Below, piece after piece: positions 13,734-30,850 of a DNA stretch of 30,850 bases (position 1 is its first letter; each line of letters begins with the position of its first letter). Origin of the DNA: a virus. The position numbers were made by a program, and so were the translations under genes. The notes under the pieces are model-generated. The model searched no databases, had not been told where the DNA came from, and was given only the letters and a program-made list of their open reading frames with translations. Location of the stretch: IMG/VR virus record IMGVR_UViG_3300032291_001706, positions 1-30,850 of that record. One strand, written 5' to 3'.

Positions 13734-14144
13734 TTAATCGCAACATGGAAATTCCATCTCGTAGTTGGAACTGAATGCCGTGTCATCTATGGCAAAACTA
13801 TCAATAACATTAATATAGATTTTTTCCGTTATCGGCATAAATAAGACACCGTCAGTATTTTTCACCATGAATTCCCCTAAGAACCTACCGACATTTTTGG
13901 TTTGATTTTTTTTGAATTGGTAGTATGTAAAGTATTCAATTTGACCGTCTTCTGTTAATCCCGATTCAACCGTTGCCGATACCGAAGTTATCTTAGGTAT
14001 TCCAGTTTCTTCATTAACCATAGAGAAATAGACATCAGACTCCCCTAAAATAGACATCGTGTTCATATAATCACTTCTTCCGTTTTGGGAAAGTTTGACT
14101 TTGATTACTGGTAGTGTTGCGTTTTTCTTAATGAACCATTCCAT
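13734..14144 (-). CDS. BppU-like baseplate protein, paralogue B
   Basis: This 136-residue protein resembles the N-terminal domain of BppU-type upper-baseplate proteins. It opens with FIKKNATLPVIKVKL, has a central DVYFSMVNEETG strand, and then an aromatic strand pair (IEYFTYYQFKK, VGRFLGEFMVKN) with a closing strand FMPITEKIYINVID. It aligns by eye along its length with the adjacent upstream gene, so the two are tandem duplicates. The start follows the upstream stop by one base. In siphophages this domain anchors receptor-binding parts to the baseplate (family knowledge). Residue 134-135 is a CC pair near the C-terminus, absent from the sister copy. Confidence 0.5.
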   Translation of the reverse strand: MEWFIKKNATLPVIKVKLSQNGRSDYMNTMSILGESDVYFSMVNEETGIPKITSVSATVESGLTEDGQIEYFTYYQFKKNQTKNVGRFLGEFMVKNTDGVLFMPITEKIYINVIDSFAIDDTAFSSNYEMEFPCCD

Positions 14145-14145
14145 A

Positions 14146-14529
14146 TTAGTTTTGATCTATTTCGTCTGACGTATAACTTTCAGATATGTTTATATATAAT
14201 TTTTCTCTAATAGGTAAAATTAAGGTTCCTTCATTATTTTTTAACACAAACTCACCTTCGTATCTACCAACTTTACTTGTATATTTTTTTGGGAATCTGT
14301 AATAGATATAATATTCTACCTTCGCGTTTGGCTCAATCTGTGTTTTTTCAACAAATCCTGCGGGTTCCAAATGTATCTTATATGAACCTGTATCACTATC
14401 AATCATGGAAAAATATATGGTTGAGGATTCAATAAAACTCATAAATGAGTCGAACTCACCTCTTCCGTCGTCAACCACTTGCATTTTTAGTAATGGTAAT
14501 GTTCCATTTTGCTTGATGTTAAATTCCAT
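14146..14529 (-). CDS. BppU-like baseplate protein, paralogue A
   Basis: I place the start at ATG 14527-14529 (MEFNIKQNGTLPLLK), giving 127 residues. A further upstream in-frame start would add 15 residues unlike the sister protein and would overrun the ATATTTAT element. The N-terminal pattern (F-I-K-Q-N-x-T-L-P), TIYFSMIDSDTGSYKI, VEYYIYYRF, VGRYEGEFVLKNNEGTLILP and KLYINI are the strand landmarks of the BppU N-terminal domain and recur in the same order in paralogue B. Likely a small baseplate or fibre-anchoring protein. Confidence 0.5.
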   Translation of the reverse strand: MEFNIKQNGTLPLLKMQVVDDGRGEFDSFMSFIESSTIYFSMIDSDTGSYKIHLEPAGFVEKTQIEPNAKVEYYIYYRFPKKYTSKVGRYEGEFVLKNNEGTLILPIREKLYINISESYTSDEIDQN

Positions 14530-14603: not shown

Positions 14604-14759
14604 ATGGGAAGAAAAACAATACCGAAAGATCAAAGAAAGGTTAAATTTGGAATAAGCTTAGACTTTGAATTATTTGATAGAATGGTTAAAGAGAAAATCA
14701 AAAAATCGACTTTGATAAACAAGTTACTCAAAGAGTATTATGGAAACAAAGATATGTAG
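14604..14759 (+). CDS. Small ribbon-helix-helix-like protein (51 aa)
   Basis: ATG 14604 to TAG 14757-14759. The layout is a basic N-terminus (MGRKTIPKDQRKVKFGISLD), a strand, then two short helices (FELFDRMVKEKIKK and STLINKLLKEYYG), as in Arc/MetJ-type DNA-binding proteins. It ends 20 bases inside the HNH endonuclease gene in another frame, so the two are very likely translated from one message. A regulator of the HNH gene or of the divergent baseplate pair is plausible but not shown. Confidence 0.7.
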   Translation: MGRKTIPKDQRKVKFGISLDFELFDRMVKEKIKKSTLINKLLKEYYGNKDM

Positions 14760-15279
14760 TAAATGCGGGGTGGAAAAAGAGGTTTGTGAGTTTAATAAAC
14801 GGAAAAACCGTAAGGGTATTGAAGTGCCTCGTGGATTTTGTAAAAAATGCCATTCATTAATGTCAATAAATTATAACAAATTAAATCCCGATAAAGTCAA
14901 ATCTCGTAGGGATACTTGGTATAAAAAAAATTATGAGGGTTTAGTTATAAAACTTAGGGAAAGGAGACAGACCGATTTACTATATAAACTAAAAATTGGG
15001 GTAAGGACCAGACTTAAAATGGCGATAAAATATAATTCAAAGAGGGGTAGTACAATTAAATTACTCGGAATTGATATTATGGGATTAAAATCATACTTAG
15101 AAAGTAAATTTATTGATGGTATGTCTTGGGAAAATTATGGTCTATATGGTTGGCATATAGATCATATAATACCTCTATCTTCCGCAAAAACAGAAGATGA
15201 ATTTTATAAATTATGTCATTATACTAACCTACAACCGCTTTGGGCTAAAGATAATTGGAAAAAAGGTAATAAATTTTAA
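14740..15279 (+). CDS. HNH endonuclease with N-terminal zinc ribbon
   Basis: A 179-residue protein. Cysteines C6, C9, C34 and C37 form a zinc ribbon (CSKCG ... CKKC). A basic helical linker is followed by an HNH core: WHIDHIIPLSS (H139, D141, H142), N163 in YTNLQPLWA, and N172 in KDNWKKGNKF. This is the layout of free-standing phage HNH nucleases, often homing-type, which nick or cut DNA at specific sites. It begins inside the upstream ribbon-helix-helix gene. It ends one base before the stop of the convergent glycosyltransferase gene, marking the border between the core genes and the glycosylation block. No flanking intron is visible. Confidence 0.88.
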   Translation: METKICSKCGVEKEVCEFNKRKNRKGIEVPRGFCKKCHSLMSINYNKLNPDKVKSRRDTWYKKNYEGLVIKLRERRQTDLLYKLKIGVRTRLKMAIKYNSKRGSTIKLLGIDIMGLKSYLESKFIDGMSWENYGLYGWHIDHIIPLSSAKTEDEFYKLCHYTNLQPLWAKDNWKKGNKF

Positions 15280-15280
15280 A

Positions 15281-16996
15281 TTAACTTTCCTTTCTTATCT
15301 CAGCGGGATAATGATCAAAACGATTGTGCTCTGTTGGTGTCATTAATAATAATCCGGCGTTTAAATTACCCTTTTTAGTTTCTTGGAACATATGACTCAT
15401 CCACGTCTGTTCGTACGGATGGGCCCACTTAGTTTCCAAAAACATTTTTTTGTTTCCTTCTTTTGATACAATTTGTACCCAATTACAATAATATATTTCT
15501 CCTGTGGCGTAAGGAACACCATCTAATGATTTAATACTATTAAATACGGTTTTTGGTGCGTTAGGATCCAATCCTTGTTGTGGTAACCTTATGTTATTTG
15601 GAAAAAAGGTTTCTCTGACTGATTGTGGTACGTTGTACCAACTCCAATTTACTGAGTTGTCACCAAAAAATTCAGAAAAATTAATTTTTAAAAAATCAAA
15701 ATTTTCATGTTTTATTATTTTTAATGTTTTATCATAAAAATTTGGGACATATCTATTAAATCCGTTTCTGCAAACTTCTCCTTTTTTTGGGTAGAAAAAC
15801 ATATCATCCTCGAACCACCAATAAAATTTATGATTTGTGTTATCAAAATGTTCAGCTACGAATTGTCTACCCCCACAAATACCCAAATTTGTTCCGTCAC
15901 CAATCATTTCAAAATTATACATATAACATAATTTATCATATTCGGCATCGGTTGTTCTATCGGTAGAATTATTCAATAAATATTTTTTTGGTTTATTGAT
16001 AAAATTCTCATCGTATTCCAACATTGACTTTATTAAAGTTTTAAACTGATTTGGTGAGTTAAACCCGATAACGTATAACGCAACTTCTTCTGCGGTTGGT
16101 TGTTGTATACTTGGGGTTGTGTTTACAATTTTATCTATTAAGAAAGTGGGATCAAATGTCGGAACTTCTTGTTTATCGTATAAACCGTTTTTAACATCCT
16201 CAAAAAACTTACCCAACAATCCTGTTTGCTCAATATTATAAATATCAATAAGATTTGGATACAAGTATGTCATTATGGTAAATAAGGATTCTTCGGTTCC
16301 CATATATCCATTATCTAATGTATCTTTCATTAGGTGATAATATATCGTATTGATCTCAGGGATACTATCTTTTTTACCACCAAAAAAACCTCCTCTTGCA
16401 ACTCTATTAACTCGGTCTTTCGAATAAATGTTTATTGAATTGTATTCAAACCCGTGAATTTCCGTACTTGTTTCATATGGGAAACAAATAAACATAAACT
16501 TATCTGTGAAGTTTGATATTTTATCTAAAACATTATCTTTGGTAAAATATCCTTGATGGACCGTGTTTGTTATTCCGGCATCTATCCAAAATAAATGATC
16601 TGAATTAAATTTGTCCAATATTTTTGCATCGTGTAACAAAAACATTTTGGACATAACAAGGGGGTTATACATTTCAAGTTTAGATTGGGTCGATTCTGAT
16701 AACCAACCTACTTGATTGTACCAATTTGGACTCGTTCTTATTTTTTGGATTTTATGGAAAAAATCGTTATTAACAAACCAAGTTAAATCTCTTTGTACAA
16801 ATTGTGTATTTTCCTCGGACCTTCTCTCAAACACAAAGTTTTTAAGGGTTTCGTCACCAAATATTATTAGGTTAACATCTAACTTTAAAAGGTCTTCTAA
16901 TTTATTTAAATAATGTTGGAAGTTTCTTGACCAACCACCTTGTAATTGGTCCCTACCGATATCCCAAAGTCCGGTTACTAGTGTTGTTTTATTCAT
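15281..16996 (-). CDS. Two-domain glycosyltransferase: HtrL/YibB-like plus GT2-like
   Basis: A 571-residue protein, last in the glycosylation operon. Residues 1-260 resemble the HtrL/YibB family: LVTGLWDIGRDQ at the start, VNLIIFGDET, and an FWIDAGI motif near 136-142 that acts like a DxD. Residues ~305-571 form a second GT-A-like domain: ALYVIGFNSPNQFKTLIKSM, then TNLGICGGRQ, then FYWWFEDDMFF with the acidic cluster at 396-398, typical of family-2-type nucleotide-sugar binding. A linker rich in Thr, Pro and Gln (about 280-302) joins them. It would add two different sugars if both domains are active (inference). No membrane segments are seen, so it should act in the cytoplasm. Confidence 0.75.
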   Translation of the reverse strand: MNKTTLVTGLWDIGRDQLQGGWSRNFQHYLNKLEDLLKLDVNLIIFGDETLKNFVFERRSEENTQFVQRDLTWFVNNDFFHKIQKIRTSPNWYNQVGWLSESTQSKLEMYNPLVMSKMFLLHDAKILDKFNSDHLFWIDAGITNTVHQGYFTKDNVLDKISNFTDKFMFICFPYETSTEIHGFEYNSINIYSKDRVNRVARGGFFGGKKDSIPEINTIYYHLMKDTLDNGYMGTEESLFTIMTYLYPNLIDIYNIEQTGLLGKFFEDVKNGLYDKQEVPTFDPTFLIDKIVNTTPSIQQPTAEEVALYVIGFNSPNQFKTLIKSMLEYDENFINKPKKYLLNNSTDRTTDAEYDKLCYMYNFEMIGDGTNLGICGGRQFVAEHFDNTNHKFYWWFEDDMFFYPKKGEVCRNGFNRYVPNFYDKTLKIIKHENFDFLKINFSEFFGDNSVNWSWYNVPQSVRETFFPNNIRLPQQGLDPNAPKTVFNSIKSLDGVPYATGEIYYCNWVQIVSKEGNKKMFLETKWAHPYEQTWMSHMFQETKKGNLNAGLLLMTPTEHNRFDHYPAEIRKES

Positions 16997-17003
16997 CTAT
17001 CAT

Positions 17004-17633
17004 TTATTGTTTTTGCATACAAACCCAAACAGCGTTAGAAAAAATCTCTTGTCTATACGGTTTTAAATTATTTTCAATACAGGATTGCTCAATATCTTCG
17101 TAAGTGATTTCTAACCAATTCCAAATTTTATTTTTGATGTTTTTTTCAAAGGTTTCTTTATCGTGACAATAATCATGTGCCAAAATAAAATCACCCGATT
17201 TTATTAATTTAGAAAATATTTTAAATTCACCTATTTTCCATCCACCATCACAAAGAACAATACTATTTCCGTCTTGTTTTATAAAATTCTCAACATCTAA
17301 TTTAACGTTAGTCCAATCTTCGTTAAAAATGTTTTCAACTCTAACATCAATACCTTTATCTAACATCTGACTATACCAAGGTCTTTCATATATGTCATAA
17401 GATAGTATTTTTGTATTTAAATTTAATTCGTCTATAATAATTTTTAAAAATTCAGTAAACCCTCCTAACGCAGTTCCAATTTCTAATATTCTCTTTGGTT
17501 TTACTTCTTTTATAAAGTCATAAAATATTTCATAAACATTATGACTTTGTTGTGCGGTATAACCCATATACGCCGATAAACTATCATTAGATTCTAAATC
17601 GGTTAATTTTGTAATATTTTCTCGTATGTTCAT
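17004..17633 (-). CDS. SAM-dependent methyltransferase, CmcI-like class I fold
   Basis: A 209-residue protein. Motif I is RILEIGTALGGFTEF (about 48-62), followed by KILSYDIY (motif II), IVLCDGGWK and DFILAHDYCHD. This order is characteristic of the CmcI/RhmE-type (cephalosporin hydroxylase-like) methyltransferases that often methylate sugars in glycan gene clusters. The substrate cannot be read from sequence; O-methyl capping of a glycan is the contextual inference. It starts two bases after the upstream gene stop, within the operon. Confidence 0.75.
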   Translation of the reverse strand: MNIRENITKLTDLESNDSLSAYMGYTAQQSHNVYEIFYDFIKEVKPKRILEIGTALGGFTEFLKIIIDELNLNTKILSYDIYERPWYSQMLDKGIDVRVENIFNEDWTNVKLDVENFIKQDGNSIVLCDGGWKIGEFKIFSKLIKSGDFILAHDYCHDKETFEKNIKNKIWNWLEITYEDIEQSCIENNLKPYRQEIFSNAVWVCMQKQ

Positions 17634-17635
17634 AA

Positions 17636-18349
17636 TTAAAATCTTATATGTAAATTTCCTGTTTTATCGTGAAATTCAAAACAATTTGGTATAAATCCTC
17701 TAAAACTATTCCAATCCCAATTCATTTCTGATTCTAAAGCAGATACCCCAATATCAAAACCATCAGGATAGTTTCTAATATTATTATGGACTGAATACCA
17801 TAAAAATTCTTCCCATCTTCTAACAAAGTACCTGAACTTCCAATTATTTTTAAAAACTAAAAATTGTTCATTAACAACATGAGCTTTATCCCATTTTGTA
17901 TGTTCGAATACGTGATAGTCTACCATTTTTCTATCAAAAAAACAATCGCTCATATTTTTTTTATGATCACCAATTAAGGATGGTCTTTCAAATAAAAAAT
18001 CTAAATCATTTCGTTCCATATGATGGAATAAGTTAAATAATTTATCCTCACTAAAATTATTTGTCATTCTCCAATCGGCATCATTATATATTATATAATC
18101 ATATCCTTTATCTAAACAATATTTTAATGATAATACTTTTAAATTTAAAAAAAAAGAAAAACCCGGATTTCCGTCATCATATCTATCTAATTTAAAAATA
18201 TCTAAATTTACTTTTGACCCTACTTCACAGATTTCATTAGTGGTAATGTTAAAATGTGCGGAGCATTTTTCACTATATTTAGTATAACATTCCGACGCAT
18301 TTTTTAAATACGAGTCCCCAACCGCTAATGTAGTGAATATATATTTCAT
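17636..18349 (-). CDS. GT-A-type glycosyltransferase, unassigned family
   Basis: A 237-residue protein beginning MKYIFTTLAVGDSYLKNASE, the usual opening strand and helix of nucleotide-sugar GT-A folds. YDYIIYNDADW (D90, D92 of the N-D-A-D-W motif) is the DxD-like metal site. Later HVVNEQFLVFKNN and a conserved acidic/aromatic C-terminal part (ALESEMNWDWNSF) resemble GTs with a small acceptor domain. Its first base overlaps the stop of the GT10 gene (TAATG). Sugar and acceptor unknown. Confidence 0.6.
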   Translation of the reverse strand: MKYIFTTLAVGDSYLKNASECYTKYSEKCSAHFNITTNEICEVGSKVNLDIFKLDRYDDGNPGFSFFLNLKVLSLKYCLDKGYDYIIYNDADWRMTNNFSEDKLFNLFHHMERNDLDFLFERPSLIGDHKKNMSDCFFDRKMVDYHVFEHTKWDKAHVVNEQFLVFKNNWKFRYFVRRWEEFLWYSVHNNIRNYPDGFDIGVSALESEMNWDWNSFRGFIPNCFEFHDKTGNLHIRF

Positions 18350-19332
18350 TAAGTTTCTACAATTTTTTCTAAAAAATTAAAAGTATAATCAAAATCATAA
18401 TAATCAGGTATTCTATTATCCAAAAAAATTGCGGATTCTATATATTTTTTGTATAACGACTGATTACTATCTATTTTTTTTATTAAAAATAAAAAATCAT
18501 TTAAATCTGTAAAGTCATGCAAATTAATGAAGCTTTCAGGATTAAATCCTTCTTCGGTTATATACTTATTACCGAAAAATATTGGTATAGCACCACTAAA
18601 AAATGCGTGATATATTTTTTCTTGTAGGATGTAATCTGTATTAGTATAATGAATTGCAATGTTAAATTTATATTTTTGAAAAAAACCTATTTTTTCTCTA
18701 TATGTTAATCCATCATTTCTACCAATATAAATAGGATCCATCCATTGATATTTATTTAACTCTTCTTCTTTTGATACATTTTGTTTCCAAGGTCCTGAAG
18801 ATGTCACTTTTTTATATTCACATAGTTTATTAAAAATAAGTTCTCTAAAGTCGTTATGGGAGGCTTGTGTAATTGAACAAAATCCAACATTTCTATTTGA
18901 AATAATATCAAAATTTCTTTTTTCAGTCAACCAATTTAATGGAGAATCCACTAATCTTGATTCATCATATAGTGTCCACACATCAAATACTCCTGATGGT
19001 TGTCTCAAAAATCTTGGGTGTTCGAATTTATTATATCCTATTGACCATTGGTTTTCATTTCTATCCAAACAGTCTTTAAAGTTTGCAACTTCTCCTGAAA
19101 CATAAATAAATTTTTTATTTTTATCGGATTGATTGAATTTTGTTGGTAAATGACCTGTATATGTATCTACGTAATTTTCATTACAATTCAAATCAGAATG
19201 GATAACAATATCGGGATTAATTGGGTCAATAATTACATTATACTTTTTAGATAAAATAAATTTAAAGTAATTAATCCAACTATGTTGTCCGTGATTTGGG
19301 AATCCTTGTCTTGTAATTCTAATAGTTTTCAT
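18349..19332 (-). CDS. GT10 family fucosyltransferase-like protein
   Basis: A 327-residue protein with the GT10 (alpha-1,3/4-fucosyltransferase) C-terminal signature: KYKFNIAIHY (220-229), DYILQEKIYHAFFSGAIPIF (233-252), then NPESFINLHDF (264-274). These correspond to the GDP-fucose-binding region, with E238 and K239 at the conserved E-K pair. The N-terminal half (about 1-150) is the variable acceptor domain. No transmembrane anchor is present, as usual for bacterial and viral members. The start ATG overlaps the upstream TGA (ATGA). It would transfer fucose or a related sugar from GDP onto a glycan, probably on the phage's own fibre (inference). Confidence 0.85.
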   Translation of the reverse strand: MKTIRITRQGFPNHGQHSWINYFKFILSKKYNVIIDPINPDIVIHSDLNCNENYVDTYTGHLPTKFNQSDKNKKFIYVSGEVANFKDCLDRNENQWSIGYNKFEHPRFLRQPSGVFDVWTLYDESRLVDSPLNWLTEKRNFDIISNRNVGFCSITQASHNDFRELIFNKLCEYKKVTSSGPWKQNVSKEEELNKYQWMDPIYIGRNDGLTYREKIGFFQKYKFNIAIHYTNTDYILQEKIYHAFFSGAIPIFFGNKYITEEGFNPESFINLHDFTDLNDFLFLIKKIDSNQSLYKKYIESAIFLDNRIPDYYDFDYTFNFLEKIVET

Positions 19333-20030
19333 TTGAAATAATCAGTTATTTTAATAGTTTCTTCATTATATCCTCCATTGTCGTGTACGAAAATTGGTAT
19401 ATTATTTTTAAATATAACAGTATCGTCATTAACGACGATATCATTTTTAGCTAAATAAGTGTTAAATACTAATTTATTTTTATAATCTAATTCAATATCA
19501 TGACTCAATAAATATTCTATTTGCCAATTACCTTGATCACATAAACCAAATAATCCGCGATTGATTATGTTTTCAACATGTGTAACAAAATGTTGAGTTT
19601 TTGCACAAAAAACGCCAGCGTTTAAAAATTTATAAGCAGTTTTAATGTTTTTAGTTTCATGTAAGTAACTATATTCGGTATTTGGCCAAAGATTAATTTC
19701 CGCTCCAAATAGTATATTACAATTATATTCGTTAAGTATTTTCGATATATCATTAATACCACCAACATAACCAACATCAGTAGCATCTAAAAGTATAAAA
19801 TATTCATACTTATTTATTAAAATATTTTTAACAAATTCAACAAATTTTTTAATTCTAAAATATTTAAATTTAAAATAGTAACTTTCATTCTTAATTATAT
19901 CACTTTCACTATTATAACGTATCACATAATAATCTTCTTTATTTATATCTTTTAATAATTTATCCTCAAATATTGGTGTAAAATTACTTGGATAATCAAA
20001 TAAAATAGTAACAACCGCAACTTTACCCAT
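19329..20030 (-). CDS. PLOD-like glycosyltransferase (GT-A)
   Basis: A 233-residue protein resembling the glycosyltransferase domain of procollagen lysyl hydroxylases and related GT25/PLOD-like proteins. Landmarks: YFILLDATDVGYVGG (acidic D82 and D85), ILFGAEINLWP (106-116), YKFLNAGVFCA (133-143), CDQGNWQIEY (164-173) and IFVHDNGG near the end. In the cellular homologues this domain glycosylates hydroxylysine of collagen-like repeats (family knowledge). Here the nearby Thr-Pro repeat fibre or a glycan on it is the likely acceptor (inference). It overlaps the GT10 gene by four bases. Confidence 0.75.
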   Translation of the reverse strand: MGKVAVVTILFDYPSNFTPIFEDKLLKDINKEDYYVIRYNSESDIIKNESYYFKFKYFRIKKFVEFVKNILINKYEYFILLDATDVGYVGGINDISKILNEYNCNILFGAEINLWPNTEYSYLHETKNIKTAYKFLNAGVFCAKTQHFVTHVENIINRGLFGLCDQGNWQIEYLLSHDIELDYKNKLVFNTYLAKNDIVVNDDTVIFKNNIPIFVHDNGGYNEETIKITDYFK

Positions 20031-20031
20031 A

Positions 20032-20664
20032 TTAATTAATTAATTGATTATAAAAAGAATTAATTAGTTCATCATCAGACTTAAATGGAATTCCATTTCC
20101 AAATATTTTGACCGGTATATCGTTTTCCCAAAAAAAAGATAGCTCACCACCTTTACTATTAATCAATATTTCATCGCTTCTTATATCGTTTTCTATCCAA
20201 GAAAATTTAGGAAAAATAATTAACTCGTTTTCTATTATATCAAAGAATTGTTTGTGGTGCGCATTTCCTCGATATTTATTTTTATATAAAAATAAAAATT
20301 CATCATATTTAGACGGTATTGCTATAAATCCGGAATTTGAAATTTCCGTCAATAGTTGTATCAAGTCTAAAGGATTAAAAACATCTTCTAATGTGTGAGA
20401 ACAAATTGAAAAATCAAATTTTCCATTTATTCTAACATAGGATAGTAGTTCTTCCCACGTTTTTTTATCTTCTAAATTTATTTTAAAAAAAATGGTTTCC
20501 TCCTTATATATAACTAAGGAATCCGCAACATACTTACACTCAGGATATGACCAATACATTGCGGACGCTCCAATATCAATAGATTTATAACCATTTTTTA
20601 ATATATATTTTTTTACGTCATCTCGTTTTCCTCCAACGTAATTATAACTCCAATTTTTTATCAT
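20032..20664 (-). CDS. Methyltransferase-like protein, divergent class I
   Basis: A 210-residue protein. KSIDIGASAMYWSY (27-40) stands where motif I (usually ExGxGxG) is expected but keeps only D-I-G-A. FDFSICSHTLEDVFNPLDLI (83-102) is a typical motif IV segment of methyltransferase-11-like enzymes, followed by GFIAIPSKYDEF. The weak motif I and a later HHKQFFDI segment suggest an altered cofactor pocket or a divergent sugar-modifying methyltransferase. Its start is ten bases from the upstream stop. Function inferred; the fold call is moderate. Confidence 0.55.
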   Translation of the reverse strand: MIKNWSYNYVGGKRDDVKKYILKNGYKSIDIGASAMYWSYPECKYVADSLVIYKEETIFFKINLEDKKTWEELLSYVRINGKFDFSICSHTLEDVFNPLDLIQLLTEISNSGFIAIPSKYDEFLFLYKNKYRGNAHHKQFFDIIENELIIFPKFSWIENDIRSDEILINSKGGELSFFWENDIPVKIFGNGIPFKSDDELINSFYNQLIN

Positions 20665-20673
20665 AAAATTATT

Positions 20674-21234
20674 TTATTTAAAATAAACAATACCAGTTCC
20701 TGTTGAGTGTCCGAGATATGTTATATCTTTTTTTAATAGGTTTATACCGTCCCAAAAAAATTTCATTTCATTATTTAAATGAATATCATCTAATAATAAA
20801 CTACCTTTATAGTTTAAATATAATAAATAATCTAAAAACTTTTGTTCAAAAACTCCATCATGAAAGGTATCTAATAGTATTATGGGTGATGCGAGTATTA
20901 TGTCGTCGTAATTACCGTTAATTACATCATCTATTATGAATTTAATATTTTTTGGTATATTAATTAATTCTAATTGATCTGTAAGATTAAAAGAATAAAT
21001 ATTATTTGTTTTATTAGTTGATAATGCTAATGCTGAACATCCTTTTAAAGTTCCAATATCTAATATAGTAACATTATTATATATTTCTGATATATAAGAT
21101 AACAACCTATAATGTTCTTTTGACGAAATTTCTTCGTAATATTCTTTATATTCTATATTATTAATATGTTTGGATGTTTTCATATCTAAATTATCCAAAG
21201 TTTCATTACTTATATTTAATATAATATTTTCCAT
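20674..21234 (-). CDS. SAM-dependent methyltransferase (methyltransferase-24-like)
   Basis: A 186-residue class I fold. VTILDIGTLKGCSALAL (55-71) is motif I; NIYSFNLTD is motif II; IILLDTFHDGVFEQKFLDYL followed by GSLLLDDIHLNNEM matches the later strands and acidic pair of the methyltransferase-24 group. Its place directly after the GlcNAc transferase gene, with seven bases between them, suggests methylation of the sugars or precursors handled by this cassette (inference). It is strikingly AT-rich, like its neighbours. Confidence 0.7.
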   Translation of the reverse strand: MENIILNISNETLDNLDMKTSKHINNIEYKEYYEEISSKEHYRLLSYISEIYNNVTILDIGTLKGCSALALSTNKTNNIYSFNLTDQLELINIPKNIKFIIDDVINGNYDDIILASPIILLDTFHDGVFEQKFLDYLLYLNYKGSLLLDDIHLNNEMKFFWDGINLLKKDITYLGHSTGTGIVYFK

Positions 21235-21241
21235 ATAAGTA

Positions 21242-22492
21242 TTACAAATTCCCCACTATTCTCTCACACCATCCCTTAGATGTTGAGTATGGCCATACAA
21301 CCCAATATTTTGGTTTGTGTGATGTTTGAAATTCTCTCCAAACTTTACAGTAACCATCAGGGTCATTTTTCATTCTATTGATCTCATTTACATCGGCATC
21401 TTTCCTAAAGATTGTTTCATCCTTATCGTCGTGAAACGCAACCACCCAAAACTCATAATCGGTTTCAGGGACTTGTGTGAATCCAATATCGATGCAGTGT
21501 TTGAAAATGGATGCAAAGCTATCTTTCCACTCCTCCTCATTTTCAAATGTATAAGGGTTCGGAGCGTATTGTTTGTCTATTGTGTATTGTTGTATAGCCC
21601 TTCTTTCAAATAGTAAACCAGAATATTTTTCATAATCCCTTAATGTTCTTTCGCTTCCGAAACCATAAATCCCGAATTCTTCGGAATTAAATGTTTCTCC
21701 GTCCATAGAGAATAATTTTCTGTTTTTAAGGTGGGCTTTATTATTTTTTGACACCCAATCTCTATCATCATCCCACTGCTTTGTTCTTCCCTTTCTTGTA
21801 TATTCATGCCAAATAAGAACTTTGTGTGGGTGGAATAAATCATACCCATGTGTATAAGCCCTTGCGGCGATTGAGATTTCTTCTCCGTGAAAATAATAAT
21901 CGGGGTCGTGTTGTACTTCTTGTGAGAACCGTCCCAAGGTAAAACAAAAATGTGCCGAATAAAATCTTGCCGTTACAGGTTCCTTTAAATCTTGCCAACC
22001 CGGAATTGTTTCGGGTAAGAAGAAAACCGCACCTTCGGGAATAAATCTATCAAAAACCATTCTCCAAGGTTCGGGAACTCTTTCTTGTGGGTCATTATCG
22101 GGATTAAATGATGACACATAACCTGTAAGTAATGGTTTTTTATGTCCTTTCTTTTGGAGTTGTTTAATCATATTAATCATCTCATCATCCCAATTTGGGG
22201 CAAACCTCATATGAGAGTCGATTTGTAAGGTATATTCTTCTCCTTTATATAATTGTTGAATTTGATTTCTCGCCCAACAAGCTCCTCTTGATTGTTGGTG
22301 TGGAATATCTAATATTCTAAACCTTTTATCTTTTCGGTATTCGTCAAGGGTATCAAAATTATCATCGGGATGAAATTGACGAGCAATTGCAAAAACTAAA
22401 TTCTTTGGTCTTTTTGCGTTTTCAATTGCCGATTTGATTGTTTTTTCTAACTCGGGATCTCTATAAGAGGCAATCTGAATAAAAATTTTCAT
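21242..22492 (-). CDS. GlcNAc transferase of the PF11397/GT60 type
   Basis: I choose ATG 22490-22492 (MKIFIQIASYRDPELEKTIK), giving 416 residues; an upstream TTG would add six residues. The opening IQIASYRDPEL, then SRGACWARNQIQQLYKGEEY, and TLQIDSHMRF with D92-S-H94 at the DxD position, are the signature of the family that includes the Dictyostelium Skp1 hydroxyproline GlcNAc transferase and the trypanosome enzymes that start mucin O-glycans on Thr. FHGEEIS (E204) and LIWHEY (H229) are later active-site segments. Residues ~320-416 are an extra C-terminal part. It is the first gene after the Thr-Pro-repeat fibre, 61 bases away, so that fibre is the obvious acceptor (inference). Confidence 0.85.
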   Translation of the reverse strand: MKIFIQIASYRDPELEKTIKSAIENAKRPKNLVFAIARQFHPDDNFDTLDEYRKDKRFRILDIPHQQSRGACWARNQIQQLYKGEEYTLQIDSHMRFAPNWDDEMINMIKQLQKKGHKKPLLTGYVSSFNPDNDPQERVPEPWRMVFDRFIPEGAVFFLPETIPGWQDLKEPVTARFYSAHFCFTLGRFSQEVQHDPDYYFHGEEISIAARAYTHGYDLFHPHKVLIWHEYTRKGRTKQWDDDRDWVSKNNKAHLKNRKLFSMDGETFNSEEFGIYGFGSERTLRDYEKYSGLLFERRAIQQYTIDKQYAPNPYTFENEEEWKDSFASIFKHCIDIGFTQVPETDYEFWVVAFHDDKDETIFRKDADVNEINRMKNDPDGYCKVWREFQTSHKPKYWVVWPYSTSKGWCERIVGNL

Positions 22493-22530
22493 GAATGTTT
22501 TTTTATTCAAAAAATAAATAACTTTTTGGG

Positions 22531-22547
22531 TTAATAAATATTAAACC
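22531..22547 (-). promoter_or_regulatory. ATATTTAT-type element before the glycosylation operon
   Basis: The minus strand reads GGTTTAATATTTATTAA, about 40 bases before the GlcNAc transferase start and just after the fibre stop. With the following CC it forms an imperfect inverted repeat (TTAATA/TATTAA). It may let the operon be transcribed separately from the fibre. Confidence 0.4.
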
Positions 22548-22553
22548 AAGGTA

Positions 22554-25500
22554 TTATGGGGGACAAATGCCACTACCCCAACTAGTAGGTCCGATGACGA
22601 TGTCAACAGGTGAAAAACTTGTTTGTAATGTAGGATTAACATAGAAATTTCCACTATATGATAATCTTGCCGAACCTGCCGGTGTCGATGTGAACGGACT
22701 TATTAATGTATATAGATAAATTGGTGATCCAATTGTCGGACATTTTTGCCATCTAAACACTCCATTAGTATCATATTGGTAAACAGTACTCCATTGTGAT
22801 ACTCCACTACTACAAATTTTTCTAATCCTAATAAAAAATGGAGGACTATTAAATATTGTTATTGTAACTCCTCCTATTGGGGGAGTACATAAAGGAAGTG
22901 TATTAGTTGTCGGACTTGTAAAGTTAAACGAATCGTCAACTTGAATCTCAACCCCTAAACAAGTTCCACATCCCACCGTACTATATTGAATTCTATATTG
23001 ACTAGGATTTGAAACCGATTGAAGTAACCCTGTTATTTGAGGAGGGCAACAAATAACTGATGGGGTTGGTGTTGGTGTCTTTGTTTGAGTAGGCGTAATA
23101 CTTGGTGATAACGTAATTGTTGGTGTAACACTTGGCGATAACGTAATGGTTGGTGTTGGCGTAGGTGTTTGACTAACTTGTGGTGGGCAAGGTAATTCTG
23201 GGTGTCCTGACGAACAGGCAGGACAATCGTCAACTCCATAAAATTCAAAGGTATTGAAATTTAAATCCTCTATGGTATATTGTTGTTCAATTTCTTGTTG
23301 GTAATTCATATTCACCACAATTGTACATCCAGTAAATCCTGTCCCTGTACTTATCGATGATGCCGATAATTCCATGTAAAAGGTTTCTCCTTCATTAAAG
23401 TCAGTATTTTGGAAGTCAGTATTAAAACGGAATATTTCATTACTACAACAAGAGCTAAACATTGTTGGACACTTATAGGTTGAGATACATATTTCACAGT
23501 CGTTGAAGTCAAAAGTATCAAAATGTTGTAACGGAGGTTCGTTACTTGGTATGTTAGTAAATCCTAAACACGTTGGTCCCGGATCCACGTTTATATCAAT
23601 CGCAACGGTTTGTCCTGCGGTAAAATTAGATGGATTAATGTTTAATGTTACCAAATCATTTGAACAACAAGAACTGAAATAATAGTTTTGATTTTCATTT
23701 TGACATGTTAAACATTCACCTTCAGTATAATCCGGTTCATTTAAAGTTATAACACTAGGTGAGTTACTTTGGACTCCGGTATTATAATAACAAATACCAC
23801 TAATAACATTAATTTCTTCTAAATTAATGTTATAATTTTCTAAATTAATTCCGACAACTATTGTCGTAGCACTAGTTTCACAATCTTTAAATTCATAATT
23901 ACAAATTACCTTATATCCCGATAAACATTCTCCACATTGTCCTGTTTGATAATTAGGGGTGTTGGATGTGGTTAATGGTGGTAAACCTGATGTTGTATTA
24001 GTTCTTGACCAACACATTCCACTATACGTTACAATATCACCTAAATCAAAGTTATTTGGATTTACCGATATTGGTATTAGTGAAGGGTAATTTGGATTAT
24101 TACAACAAGGGGTAAATAAATATGTAACATAATTAACCGATGGTGTTATTGTTGGTGTTTGTGTTAATGTTTGAGTCGGTGTAACCGTTATTGTTGGTGT
24201 TAATGTTTGAGTCGGTGTAACCGTTCTTGTTGGTGTCCTTGTCGGCGTTACCGTAGCAGTATTAGTTGGTGTAATAGTAGGTGTTGGAGTAATAGTAGGT
24301 GTTGGTGTAGGTGTTGGCGGACTTATACAGTCATCACAGTCGTTAAACGGGCCGCTACTAATTGTGGTAGAACTAAATGTACAATCAGTACACTGGGGTA
24401 TTAAGTCAACTATTGTATAACAACCACCGCTAAATCCTTCATTATAATCTAACCTAACCACCGCAACCGATTGGTTATTAGCATATCCTGTAAACGCACC
24501 ACCAAGTAAAACTTTATCGTCATTTTGAATATGAATGTCATTTACAATAGCAACACCAATATTATTATTAAAATTAAGATCAAAAGTAAATTGTTCATTA
24601 AAACTTCCGTCCTCATTTAATAACACAATCCCACGACATCCATTTCCATTAAATGATGTAAATTGACCTCCGACATAAATCTTGCCGTCAGGTCTTATTT
24701 TAATTGAAAAAACAGCATTATCAAATCCAGTACCTCTTTGGAAAGGATTATCTATAGTACCTCCCGAATTTAATCTCACTATATAATTATACGCAACACC
24801 ACTATATGTGGTAAAACTACCTCCAACTAAGATTTTACCATCGGGTTGTTCAGCAATCGCCCTTATTGTTCCGCCAAAACTTAAACTAGACCCCGTAAAA
24901 GTTGTATCCAAGGATGTGTCTTCGGATATTCTAATTATATTATTTACAATCTGTCCTTGGTATGTACAACCCCCTGAAGTAAATTGACCTCCAACATAAA
25001 AACCTTCCGCAAGTCCGATATTAGTCCTTTCTATTGCATATACACCTACACTACCTGAGAACGTATTAGTCGAGATTCTACTACCAGTTAAGGTGTCAAT
25101 CAGTATTAATCCTCTATTAGTTGATGATGTAATTCCGTTGTATGTTATTATAACACCACCTATTAATGCTCGATTACCTGTACTTAACCATTTAACCACA
25201 TAAACAGGATCACTATTTGCTACACCCACCCCCCAAGTAAATGCCGTTGATCCGTCAAAGGAGTTAAGGATACATACACTATCGCTAATATTTAACCCAT
25301 TGTAGTTTTGAAAAGACCCTCCAACCAAAAGATATTTTGAATCATACCTTAAATCAGTTGAATAAACTGGTCCGTTAAAACCTGTGGTAACTCCACTGAA
25401 CGTTGAGTCGGATATACCGTCATTTCTAAATTTAGTAATTCGGTTTTTAACACCGCTGTCAACAAAAACCCCCCCTAAAATATATCCTTCTGTATATCCT

Positions 25501-28500
25501 GACGCTCCACTAAAATATGTAATATCAAAAACCGTGTTATTTAATTGAGTTCCGGCACTAAATGTAGAATCGTAAAAAAAGTTAGAATTAATACTATATG
25601 TTCCACCGATATTAAGTTCGGTTGGATTACACAAATAATATGTATTACCATTAGTACAACTACTTAGTTCATAGTAGAATGTGTTGTTTTGTTGATTTAT
25701 CTCTAAACATTCAGTACAATCAGAATAACCTGAGTAAATAACCGAAGTACCGGTTATTTCTGTTGAAATTCGTATATATTCATAACATTTTCCACTATAT
25801 TCAAATACCGGATTTGTTAAATAATCCCAATCTTCACTAGCATATACAGTAATATCATCATTACGATCGCAACAATTTCTAGTGTCAATTAATGTTGACC
25901 TCTTACAATATTCTGAATTATCATTTAAAGCCGCTGCACAGTTTACATAATCAGGAGTTTGGAAACACGTTCTAGGTGCGTCACAAGAATCTACTTCAGG
26001 ATTACATATTCTTAAAAGAGAATAAGGTTCGCTAGTGTCAGGATCAATAATTACGTTTCCAATAACAAAATTAGATTTTCTAATATTAAAAGGTAATTCG
26101 GTAACTCCATCACAACAATTAACAAATATCCACGTTTCACAACAATCGTTATAATCAACTATACATGTTTCACAAGTTCCGGCAGAATATTCAAATGTCG
26201 GATAGTTCGCCACAGGTAATGTTGTTGAGGTAAATGTCCCATTCCAATTGTAACATTTAGTACCATTACCATCGTCGTAAGCTACAATATCACCAGTACT
26301 AAATCCGCCAGTATCAATACCAAATACTATTTCTGTAATACCTGAACAACAATCTGTAAATACACCCCAATCACAATAAAATCCATTTTCGGTTAAACAA
26401 GTTTCACATTGACCTGACGAATATTGTGGTGTATTATATGTGTTTTCTGGAGTGTCTTCCGATGTGTTTTCGGTTAAATACCAACAAGTTGAAGAGTCTG
26501 TAACAATATCTCCTGTGTTAAAATTATTTATATTAATTGAAAATACTTTTGTGAAAGCGCTTGTACAACAATCTAAAAATTCACGACTTACGTAATTAGG
26601 AACCGTTGTTGATGTAGGTGTTTGAGTAATTGTCGGAGTAATCGTTGGCGTGATTGTATTGGTAGGAGTAACCGTAGGTGTTGGTGTCACCGTATTAGTT
26701 GGTGTTACCGTCGTAGTGTTAGTTGGTGTTACAGTAGATGTCCTAGTTGGGGTTGGTGTAGGAAATACGAATCTTGTTTTGGTAGGTGTAACTGTCGGTG
26801 TAATTGTGTTGGTTGGAGTTACTGTTGGACTTACTGTTGGTGTTACAGAATTAGTTGGTGTAATTGTTGTTGTAACCGTAGGTGTTGTAGTATTAGTCGG
26901 TGTAGGACTTGGTGTTGGACAAAAATTATTTCCTGTCGTTGCTGTTAAACATGCCACACATGAAACATATCCTTCATCAATACTTTCGTTTAGATTATAA
27001 TTATTTATTGATGTTCCGTTAGTAACTATGGCACATCCTGAAAATTGTTCAGTACTTATTAAATAAATTGAGTTTAATTCTAATTCATATATTAAATTTG
27101 TTAGCGGTTCTGATAAATTAAAAACATCATTAGTACAACATGAACTGAATACTCTTGGTAATTCGCCTTGAGCACATTCCTCACAACTATTAAATGTGTT
27201 TCCTGTTGGTTCATAATCACCAACGTTATTGTTTGTGGTGGCACTACTAACCATTGTCCAACATCCTTCTAATGAAGATAAACCGAAATATAAACCCGGT
27301 ACGAAGATTAAATCTTGATCTGAGTAAACGCAATTACCCAAATTTTCTATTTGATTAAAAAATCTATTAAAAGAATTGTTTAACGTTGATGAACTAAAAT
27401 TTGTAACTGTTGGATCAATTACCCAATTAAAATTCTTTAATCCTGAACCATTTTGTAATGATATTGGTAGGTTAGTATAACTTGTATTAGCGGTAAATGA
27501 TGTAAATGCGTTATTTGTTTCCAAAGTTTCAAAAGTCCAAATGGATCCCATTCTACTATTGATGTTTGGCCATACACCACCGTTAAAATTATATGTGTTA
27601 CTAAAATACGTTGAGTTATTTATTTCTCCTTCAATTAATCCTAAAGATTCAAAATCAAATTGGAAATTTCTAGCGGCAGTATTCCCTGTATATGGATTAC
27701 CAGGAAAATTTGGATTATTTCCCGATGATGGTTCAGGAAATAAGAAATTATCCATACTACCACCAATATTATATTTTAAATCATACCATACCTTAAGATA
27801 TTTTCCATAATCAGTTTGTAAAGTAGGTGTGTTATAGAACGAGTCAGGCTGATTTAAGGTGTTACCCGTTTCAGATAATGTTTGACCTGAATTATATACA
27901 TCATTTGATTCATTAATTATCGCTATGGTAATATAGTTATTATCACCTCCGAAAGATGCTACAGATCCGTTATAAGACGATACGGGAGCACCAGGCGAAC
28001 TTCCGGGGAATCCGTTAGAATATATGTTATCCGACCCGTCAAAATTTAATCCTCTATTAATAAAATATCTTTCGTCATTATCATCACTTATTGCGGTAGG
28101 TACGGTTTCACCAACAAATTCGCCAGTGGATAAAGACCCGCCTATCAGTTTACCCAAATAAGGATATAATCCCCACCAAACCCAATTTTCAGACGCAACA
28201 CATAACTCATATAATTGACCTGTATAACCACTTAATGTTACTAAATCACCAAACCAACTTCTAACAGAATTGGATGCATTTTGTAATAATTGTCCTTGAT
28301 ATGAACCTGATGCGTCATAAAAGACATATATGTTTTTTGTTAAATCAACCGTATCCTCACACTGACAAAATTCAAAAACAGGATTTTGTCTACACGGATT
28401 TGTTGCTTCTTCACATTCAGTACAGTTAGTGTGTGTTGTTCCCGTATTTGTTTTTAAAAAGTAATTAGTAACTGATGGACCATTAACAATTCTAAAACAT

Positions 28501-30850
28501 CCTTCAATACCGTTCGCATTGAAGTAGTACGTTAATGCTGGATTTAAACTATAAATTGTGTTATAATTCATACCAAAACCACTAAAATTAAATGTTTGAC
28601 CTGACAATAAATCACAACATGCACTGAATGATAATTGTCCTGATGTTGCCGTAGGTGTTGGTGTTGTTGTGTTAGTAGGCGTTTGAGTAACTGTCGGAGT
28701 TACTGTATTCGTAGGTGTAGGTGAAGGGGTTATACCACCTTCAGTTGGTGTTACCGTTGGTGTGGTTGTATTAGTTGGGGTAATTGTCGGTGTAACGGTA
28801 TTAGTAGGCGTTTGTGTTACTGTCGGTGTTACCGTATTAGTAGGTGTAAGTGTCTGAGTAGGTGTTTGAGTTGGCGTAGGGGTAGGGCATGGATTACTTG
28901 TTGTACAAGTATCACAATCAGTTTGTGTTGTAAAAGTGTCTGATATATTATATGCGTAATTATTAGGAGCGGAAGTTAACCCACTTAAATAAGTCGCACA
29001 TCCAACAAAACCTGAACTATTAATATAATAAACAACATTATCGGTTAACCCCGTGAACACAGAATTCGGCATTGAGAATATTTGGAACACATCATTAGGT
29101 AAACAACATCCACTAAAAAATGCGTTTTTTGGTGGATATACTGTGTGTGTCGGGGTTGGAGTAGGTGTTTGAGTAGGTGTTTCTGTATTGGTTGGAGTTA
29201 TAGTCGGTGTAACAGTATTTGTTGGAGTTGTTGTGTTTGTTGGAGTTTGAGTTACGGTTGGGGTAACTGTGTTGGTAGGTGTTTCAGTTATAGTCGGTGT
29301 AACTGTATTAGTGACAGTATTAGTAGGAGTTTGAGTATTTGTAGGTGTAGGCGAAGGAGTTACGTTACCACTAGTTGGAGTATTAGTTGATGTAATCGTA
29401 TTTGTCGGTGTAACCGTTGGTGTTGTTGTTTTAGTGGGCGTTACCGTTGGCGTTTTAGTACTTGTAACAGTATTGGTTGGTGTTACCGTATTAGTTGGTG
29501 TAACAGTATTTGTAGGTGTAGGTGTCTGAGTAGGTGTTTGAGTACTTGTAACTGTATTAGTCGGCGTGTTTGTAGGAGTAACTGTATTAGTCGGTGTAGG
29601 ACTTTCTGTTGGTAGTGGTGTTCCGTCAGGTGTTCTTGTAGGTGTTACTGTTTTAGTCGGAGTAACGGTGTTAGTTGGTGTATTGGTAGAAGTTTTTGTT
29701 ACGGTATTCGTAGGGGTATTTGTTGGTGTTTCAGTTGGTGTTGCGGTATTTGTCGGCGTAACGGTAGGTGTCGTCGTTGGGGTTGACGTTACGGTTTTTG
29801 TTGGAGTAATGGTTGGTGTTACAGTATTTGTTGGTGTTACAGTACTAGTCGGAGTTTCCGTTGGTAGAGGTGTTCCATCAGGTGTTCTTGTTGGGGTATT
29901 AGTTGGTGTTGATGTCTTTGTAGGAGTTTGAGTTGGGGTATTAGTTGGAGTATTTGTATTTGTAACAGTATTAGTTGGAGTATTTGTCGTAGTATTAGTA
30001 GGAGTATTAGTAACAGTATTTGTTGGAGTCGGAGTTACGGTATTAGTTGGTGTAACTGTTGGAGTTACGGTATTAGTTGGTGTAACTGTTGGAGTTCCAG
30101 TACCTGTTTGTGTTACGGTATTAGTTGGTGTTGAAGTTTGAGTCGGTGTTTCAGTAGGAAATGGGGTTCCATCAGGAGTTCTTGTAGGAGTTACAGTATT
30201 AGTAGGTGTAATTGTACTTGTTGGTGTTACAGTACTTGTTGGTGTTACAGTATTTGTAGGGGTATTGGTTGGCGTATTTGTAGAAGTAACTGTATTTGTT
30301 GGAGTTACAGTAGTGGTGTTTGTTGGTGTTGATGTAACTGTGTTAGTTGGGGTATTTGTTGGCGTTACTGTATTTGTTGGTGTAACAGTACTAGTCGGAG
30401 TTTCAGTAGGTAATGGCGTTCCATCAGGTGTTCTTGTTGGTGTTATAGTATTGGTAGGAGTATTTGTTGGTGTTTGTGTTGTAGTTGGTGTTTGTGTTGT
30501 AGTCGGAGTTACAGTATTAGTCGGCGTAACTGTCGGCGTAACCGTATTAGTTGGAGTTATTGTTGGTGTTATAGTATTAGTCGGCGTAACTGTCGGCGTA
30601 ACCGTATTAGTTGGAGTCACCGTCGGAGTTTGTGTCGTTGTTGGGGTTGGTGTTTGAGTTGAAGTTCTTGTGTTAGTTGGTGTAACCGCAGGGGTGTATG
30701 TTGGAGTAACTGTTGGTGTGTTAGTCGGAGTTTGAGTTGGTGTAACTGTTTGAGTTGGTGTAACTGTTTTAGTAGGAGTAACAGTGTTAGTCGGAGTTAC
30801 GGTTGATGTTTTGGTTGGGGTTGTAGTATTAGTAGGTGTTGAAGTTTGTG
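22554..30850 (-). CDS. Giant Thr/Pro-repeat multidomain virion or fibre protein, N-terminus beyond window
   Basis: The frame is open to the right edge: 2764 residues are visible plus the stop at 22554. The GTG at 30618-30620 is only a Val codon in the repeat, not a start. In protein order: at least 570 residues of T-P-T-N-T-V-like repeats, then at least ten Cys-rich modules of ~70-80 residues (F-x-x-C-C ... G-C ... D-C-x-x-C) separated by four shorter Thr-Pro blocks, then a C-terminal fibronectin-III-like domain (about 23045-22554). A VWA-like domain with MIDAS motif YDASGSYQG lies near 28320. A delta-60-type beta-propeller ([20 protein letters not shown]) occupies roughly 25600-24430. Likely an adhesin-like surface fibre; the mucin-like tracts are candidate O-glycosylation sites. 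Exact role inferred. Confidence 0.85.
23058..23178 (-). repeat. Thr-Pro block E of the giant protein
   Basis: A short block of [12 protein letters not shown] units between the last Cys-rich module and the C-terminal FN3-like domain. The unit ITLSPS(V/I)TPT appears twice. Confidence 0.85.
24138..24320 (-). repeat. Thr-Pro block D of the giant protein
   Basis: About 60 residues of T-P-T-x-T repeats with interspersed Arg ([13 protein letters not shown]) and a repeated [11 protein letters not shown] unit. It follows the propeller-containing module and precedes the next Cys-rich module. Confidence 0.85.
26600..26919 (-). repeat. Thr-Pro block C of the giant protein
   Basis: About 107 residues of T-P-T-N-T-V/I repeats, broken by an aromatic-basic insertion KTRFVFPTP in the middle. 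It separates the modules after the VWA-like domain from the next group of Cys-rich modules. Confidence 0.85.
28645..28888 (-). repeat. Thr-Pro block B of the giant protein
   Basis: About 80 residues of T-P-T-N-T-V-T-P-T and T-Q-T-P repeats with a central [10 protein letters not shown] break. It lies between the first and second Cys-rich modules. Confidence 0.85.
29142..30850 (-). repeat. Thr-Pro block A, longest mucin-like tract, runs off the right edge
   Basis: At least 570 residues in which every second residue is essentially Thr, alternating with Pro, Asn, Val, Ser or Gln. The base unit is about six residues (T-P-T-N-T-V). Synonymous codons vary between units, although one 20-residue unit is repeated almost exactly at the DNA level with a 60-base period (30521 and 30581). 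The antisense strand is open in several frames purely because of this composition. Confidence 0.95.
29610..30440 (-). repeat. Higher-order repeat marked by R-T-P-D-G-T-P
   Basis: Four copies of the cassette [10 protein letters not shown](L/F)PTE(T/S)PT occur inside block A. Their matching bases (ttcc on the plus strand) start at 29621, 29873, 30167 and 30419, so spacing is 252, 294 and 252 bases (84, 98 and 84 residues). Confidence 0.9.

Follow-up and report, generated by a model that had tools for sequence, protein, structure and literature searches.

The giant Thr/Pro-tract gene of IMGVR_UViG_3300032291_001706, a complete IMG/VR virus record of 30,850 bases that was analyzed whole (hereafter the window), and the cassette of eight genes that follows it appear to belong to a phage-encoded, cytoplasmic, mucin-like O-glycosylation island, which would act on the Thr-Pro tracts of virion proteins and whose glycan genes are exchangeable. 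We give this reading a probability of roughly 0.7. The cassette begins with a PF11397/GT60-like glycosyltransferase and ends with a fusion of HtrL/YibB and GT2-like domains (YibB-GT2), and both of these bookends are conserved in related loci. The gene families, the motif and fold of the first enzyme, the bookended architecture, and the linkage to Thr-Pro tracts, both genome-wide and local, were computed directly.

The conserved first gene (21242–22510, minus strand, with a likely start ATG at 22489) matches the Pfam GlcNAc domain with an E-value of 4e-68 and 230.8 bits (gathering score 21). In an alignment of 27 PF11397 sequences residues D98-S-H100 (DSH) are invariant, DxH thus replacing DxD, and an HGEE motif and H235 are likewise invariant among the PF11397 relatives. 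DxH is the form of DxD found in GT27 and GT60, two families that share polypeptide Ser/Thr O-glycosylation (PMC7185993), and the GT60 enzyme TcOGNT1 of the trypanosome T. cruzi begins O-glycan synthesis at Thr residues in mucins (PMC9472816). The structure predicted for the window protein (predicted local distance difference test, pLDDT, 90.5) has as its best matching folds in the Protein Data Bank (PDB) the polypeptide GalNAc-transferases, with human enzymes the best of them (E 3.5e-10). A profile search with the PF11397 alignment gave no useful match. On sequence and model, the first gene probably encodes a polypeptide O-glycosyltransferase.

A candidate acceptor is encoded next to it. The giant Thr/Pro-tract fiber or adhesin (22554–30848, minus strand) is seen over 2764 residues, its 5' end being lost at the contig edge; between its Thr/Pro tracts lie Cys-rich domains (phrog_15511) and a beta-propeller of the DUF5122 type. 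The main tract (29142–30848, minus strand; 569 residues seen) is 49% Thr and 19% Pro with Thr at every second residue, and shorter tracts lie at 28650–28910, 26613–26921, 24150–24320 and 23058–23180. Altogether 413 Thr, 172 Pro and 4 aromatic residues occur among 854 tract residues, a composition that has the dense Thr/Pro and the few charged or aromatic residues of mucin-type acceptors, and Thr stands at position i+2 after Thr in 92.5% of cases. Because variation between copies 18 nt apart is mostly at third codon positions (mismatch of 62%, vs 34% at positions 1 and 2), the tract, judged from its sequence, is real and its amino-acid pattern is constrained. A GTG at 30620 was rejected as the start of the fiber, the gene being open at the contig edge where the record ends (30850), and the plus-strand open reading frames (ORFs) over the gene were dismissed as mirror ORFs of the repeats. 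The sequence-only reading had described a Thr/Pro-repeat protein followed by eight co-directional genes, and this is what we find, from the fiber (30848–22554, minus strand) through eight ORFs down to 15281; the gaps of 0–61 bases that it gave are about right, the spacers running from ~43 bases (fiber to PF11397) down to a 4-base overlap.

Related loci were collected through PF11397 homologues from 44 viral contigs and polymerase homologues from 80 more; most are fragments or metagenome-assembled genomes (MAGs), and the counts include near-identical contigs. In fifty of the loci PF11397 opens and YibB-GT2 closes a cassette on one strand, and 0–10 variable genes lie in between. The interiors hold 183 genes in 59 families (25% identity), among which Pfam recognizes fucosyltransferases, methyltransferases, carbamoyltransferases, galactosyltransferases, GT25, GT34, GT2, GT7-type, PLOD and RXYLT1-type enzymes and single sugar-nucleotide genes. 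In the window the conserved last gene (15281–16996, minus strand) matches HtrL_YibB of Pfam with an E-value of 6.5e-18 and scores 67.8 bits against the NCBIfam equivalog TIGR02192, below its cut-off of 264.9; by sequence its product is a relative of the YibB domain and not YibB itself. A separate arrangement, two tandem PF11397 genes with no YibB-GT2 close by, was observed in large phage contigs (L034, L036–L045).

Linkage of the cassette to Thr-Pro tracts was assessed in phage records with a strict DNA pattern for TPTxTxTPT, the comparison being a small neutral set of 18 viral records of smaller size. The pattern occurs in 33/41 records fetched through PF11397 and, in a separate count, in 34/37 records of at least 80 kb that carry PF11397, against 1/18 neutral records, and it is found in 19/20 large records chosen by polymerase alone. 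PF11397 itself is present in 17/18 of the polymerase-chosen set, in none of the 18 neutral records, and in 18/44 records chosen only by the Thr-Pro pattern. Where bookended loci include upstream sequence, a Thr-Pro gene is close by in 17 of 20. The association largely tracks one lineage, that of the family B DNA polymerase (polB). The linkage that the sequence-only reading proposed to look for is seen at genome level, and strict adjacency is missing in several loci. We rejected the proposition that the cassette requires an adjacent Thr-Pro gene, since several loci have none though their whole records contain tracts, and also the proposition that every record with Thr-Pro tracts has PF11397, which 26 of the 44 tract-chosen records lack.

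Both bookends are also present in two jumbo phages in culture, XacN1 and RAS14, whose polymerase is distant and whose Thr-Pro proteins are scattered over the genome (ORF350 and ORF325 are examples in XacN1). In XacN1 the PF11397 orthologue is ORF334 and the YibB-GT2 orthologue ORF330, with cargo between them. XacN1 virions are reported to contain at least two glycoproteins, and the authors propose phage glycosyltransferases, ORF334 among them, as possible makers of these (PMC5852040).

Cassettes of this kind are also found in cells. A genome scan yielded 73 bacterial PF11397 loci, and bacteria have PF11397 paired with YibB-GT2 or fused to it. A Thr-Pro gene lies no more than two genes from PF11397 at 14 of 70 usable loci vs 5.7 expected (0/5000 shuffles); for a distance of at most one gene the excess is borderline only (p 0.06). 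The chromosomal cassette of Jiulongibacter sediminis (L362:4943–15145) comprises a UDP-glucose dehydrogenase, an epimerase, two PF11397 genes, a single 262-aa Thr-Pro protein with a twin-arginine-like signal, a carbamoyltransferase, which the XacN1 cassette has too, and an FkbM-YibB-GT2 fusion. The pattern TPTPTxTP was chosen after reading this Thr-Pro protein and then applied unchanged to other genomes. All four matches in the 4.5 Mb J. sediminis genome fall within the 262-aa protein, and the gene adjoining PF11397 holds all 3 matches in a Bacteroidia MAG and 4/6 in an Acidobacteria MAG. At the Acidobacteria MAG locus (L384:4596–10141) a twin-arginine Thr-Pro protein is directly followed by a 1196-aa ORF that joins PF11397 to both YibB-GT2 halves; a Vicingus MAG offers a weaker case of such a fusion. 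Twin-arginine-like signals, called by a crude rule with at least one hit each way an annotation artefact, were found in 6/19 Thr-Pro proteins of the bacterial loci vs 62/882 other proteins (p 0.002). This enrichment is consistent with modification in the cytoplasm, a step that we infer, before export. In Sphingomonas MAGs and Azospirillum (L375:6387–10004, L376:6400–10008 and L378) PF11397 lies near Thr/Pro-tract proteins resembling baseplate or tail-sheath parts, which hints at glycosylated tail-like particles. Whether PF11397 and YibB-GT2 are central to a hitherto undescribed mucin-like system of O-glycosylation, cytoplasmic, dedicated to Thr-Pro tracts and common to large phages, tail-like particles and bacteria, seems to us evenly balanced; it would serve twin-arginine-exported surface proteins in cells and virion arms in phages, with interior genes swapped to alter the glycan.

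For the phage, the polypeptide acceptor in vivo, the identity of the sugars, the order of the steps and the biological benefit are what we infer in the following scheme. The cassette enzymes would be made in the host cytoplasm, where the PF11397 enzyme would place a first sugar on Thr (possibly Ser) of the Thr-Pro tracts in the fiber and in other virion proteins. YibB-GT2 would act in the conserved core, probably adding the next sugar or serving in transfer, and the 0–10 exchangeable genes (here GT10, PLOD-like and GT-A-like enzymes and methyltransferases) would lengthen the chain and add fucose and methyl groups to it. The glycosylated carriers, built into the tail, would form stiff sugar-coated arms whose outer glycan could change quickly between strains. 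An O-glycosylation system aimed at Thr-Pro tracts, as the sequence-only reading had it, is well supported by the DxH motif, the GT27-like fold, the co-occurrence in genomes, the XacN1 bookends and the single Thr-Pro genes of the cellular cassettes; the adjacent fiber is unlikely to be the sole substrate. Because several relatives have their Thr-Pro genes elsewhere and not beside the cassette, the enzymes probably act on several Thr-Pro virion proteins encoded across the genome. The enzymes for fucose and methyl groups are present here, and they belong to the variable interior, not to the conserved core.

Several observations weigh against this reading. The fold match of PF11397 (TM-score about 0.5) holds at whole-fold level only, whole-fold likeness being what the E-values express, and GT2 enzymes with non-protein acceptors (GlfT2, chondroitin polymerase) score against the model too. 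Outside the polB lineage the phage excess is not significant (5/29 vs 0/18, p 0.14), so independent support comes from XacN1/RAS14 and the bacterial cassettes; 24/29 Thr-Pro phages outside this lineage are without PF11397, and the tracts therefore do not require it. Bookends occur without an adjacent Thr-Pro gene in several loci (L014, L180, L185), two PF11397 records of more than 130 kb have no tract match, and four bacterial genomes with both PF11397 and YibB-GT2, all of them MAGs and perhaps incomplete, have no TPTPTxTP match. In addition, the XacN1 glycoproteins go unnamed in the main text of the paper (PMC5852040).

The cassette might instead glycosylate other virion proteins, of the baseplate, capsid or sheath, the Thr-Pro tracts being unmodified flexible linkers. 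Mycobacteriophage capsid and tail tube are glycosylated (as cited in PMC12619734), and genes for BppU_N-like proteins follow YibB-GT2 in 33/34 bookended loci, a tighter association than that of the Thr-Pro genes. In the window these are a BppU_N-like baseplate protein (14146–14529, minus strand) and a second protein of the same family (13734–14144, minus strand). The model of a small protein downstream of the cassette resembles baseplate proteins of phages NF5 and TP901-1; the Pfam match to BppU_N has an E-value of only 0.09, and the baseplate assignment therefore rests on the fold search. A profile search with the BppU-like alignment gave no useful match. However, 30/72 BppU-like proteins have Thr-Pro tracts themselves, the cassette neighbor is a Thr-Pro protein in Jiulongibacter and in the Bacteroidia and Acidobacteria MAGs, and no phage baseplate gene was recognized beside the Jiulongibacter Thr-Pro gene, so that we consider this explanation unlikely. 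A tail sheath with a Thr-Pro tract arose from a loose cut-off and was lost at a stricter one.

Modification of host lipopolysaccharide (LPS) or capsule, blocking superinfection in the manner of serotype-converting phages, is quite unlikely in our estimate. In E. coli the YibB gene is found close to those for LPS, and the cargo families GT25, GT10 and GT34 also make surface glycans. Yet among the window cassette genes we recognized neither an O-antigen gene nor a flippase nor any membrane-bound enzyme acting on a lipid carrier, the initiator fold and DxH motif indicate polypeptide acceptors, and the linkage to Thr-Pro tracts, including that in cells, would be left unexplained. Many large phages glycosylate their DNA, and a weak PHROG match to beta-glucosyl-HMC-alpha-glucosyltransferase (E 0.04) points the same way, but glycosylation of phage DNA is very improbable here: PF00303, the family that includes dCMP hydroxymethylase, is missing in 10/19 PF11397 records, some of them of 177–215 kb, the genes are located among fiber genes, and the bookends occur in bacterial chromosomes as well. 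O-glycosylation of Thr-Pro tracts remains our preferred reading.

The cargo of the window, all on the minus strand, comprises a probable methyltransferase (20674–21234), a putative methyltransferase-like protein (20032–20664), a PLOD/collagen-glucosyltransferase-type glycosyltransferase (19329–20030), a GT10 fucosyltransferase-like protein (18349–19332), a GT-A-like enzyme (17636–18349) and a CmcI/rhamnosyl O-methyltransferase-like protein (17004–17633). A four-sequence profile of the PLOD-like gene matches mimivirus R699 (E 1e-15), the solved mimivirus collagen glucosyltransferase (activity in PMC9546862), and human LH3 (7e-7), and a relative scores 2.5e-18 against GT_PLOD, as expected of a PLOD-type glycosyltransferase domain; the sequence-only assignment was right. 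The GT10-like gene matches Glyco_transf_10 of Pfam (4.6e-10; C-terminal domain at 39.9 bits vs a cut-off of 23.9) and an alpha-1,3-fucosyltransferase in the PDB (E 8e-11), and the CmcI-like gene matches RMNT_CmcI (E 1e-6). Pfam also upheld the earlier PF11397 and HtrL/YibB assignments. Both methyltransferase assignments are weaker, the first being reached through a relative that matches Methyltransf_24 weakly (E 1e-3) and the second having no convincing match, and a DAD motif is all that speaks for the GT-A enzyme. Three cargo genes, each searched against the PDB as a single sequence, gave no useful match. The GC content of the interior genes is 0.21–0.27 vs 0.31–0.36 for the bookends and core, and such AT-rich cargo is consistent with recent acquisition.

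The source is a large, freshwater, contractile-tailed phage that encodes a sheath, a UvsW-like helicase, a neck protein and a family B DNA polymerase. Because its best polymerase matches in INPHARED are only 23–30% identical, its lineage has, by sequence, no close cultured member there. A gene fusing an Fe/Mn superoxide dismutase domain to ~280 residues of no known type (6782–8314) is conserved in relatives, where it likewise adjoins the genes for the neck protein and UvsW. Between YibB-GT2 and the baseplate-like genes, an Endonuclease VII/HNH gene (14740–15279) lies on the opposite strand; since only some relatives have it at the same site, it is perhaps a mobile endonuclease.

Environmental phages often have Thr-Pro tracts, and so do members of the window lineage. 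Should these tracts serve as scaffolds for glycans, large phages would be producing mucin-like coats of their own by means of relatives of eukaryotic mucin-initiating enzymes, and through the variable cargo they could quickly alter the sugars on their surface, for adhesion or shielding. Since the best of the cassettes in cells offers one clear candidate substrate, the chemistry is open to direct testing in a cultured bacterium, and these cassettes hint at a bacterial O-glycosylation route that may have gone unrecognized. In the open-access library searched we found no match for phage-encoded protein glycosylation or Thr/Pro-rich tail fibers, and earlier descriptions may be missed.

Among known systems, the moraphages (PMC12619734) are likewise large and aquatic with PolB and uvsW, a likeness to the window lineage by description only; they have four core glycosyltransferases of undefined role, for which that paper proposes no Thr-Pro target. 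Mimivirus also encodes a PLOD-type glycosyltransferase, R699, for collagen glycosylation, and the PLOD-like gene is its relative; unlike in mimivirus, no lysyl hydroxylase was seen in the window, nor any collagen repeat (no Gly-X-Y run on reading the fiber translation). Mycobacteriophage virion proteins carry O-glycans attributed to phage-encoded enzymes, at the C-terminal ends of the capsid and tail tube proteins, unlike Thr-Pro tracts (Freeman 2023, cited in PMC12619734). XacN1 (ORF334, ORF328) shares PF11397 and YibB-GT2 orthologues, interior cargo, many Thr-Pro proteins and reported virion glycoproteins with the system proposed here and differs in lineage and cargo (carbamoyltransferase); the passages of that report consulted here draw no link from ORF334 to ORF330, Thr-Pro tracts or mucin-type chemistry (PMC5852040). 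With the GT60 enzymes (Skp1 GlcNAc-transferase, T. cruzi OGNT1) and GT27 the window gene shares the PF11397 domain, DxH, a GT27-like predicted fold and a Thr/Pro-rich candidate acceptor. Unlike them, it belongs to phages or bacteria, is presumably cytoplasmic, has a C-terminal domain of its own and is paired with YibB-GT2.

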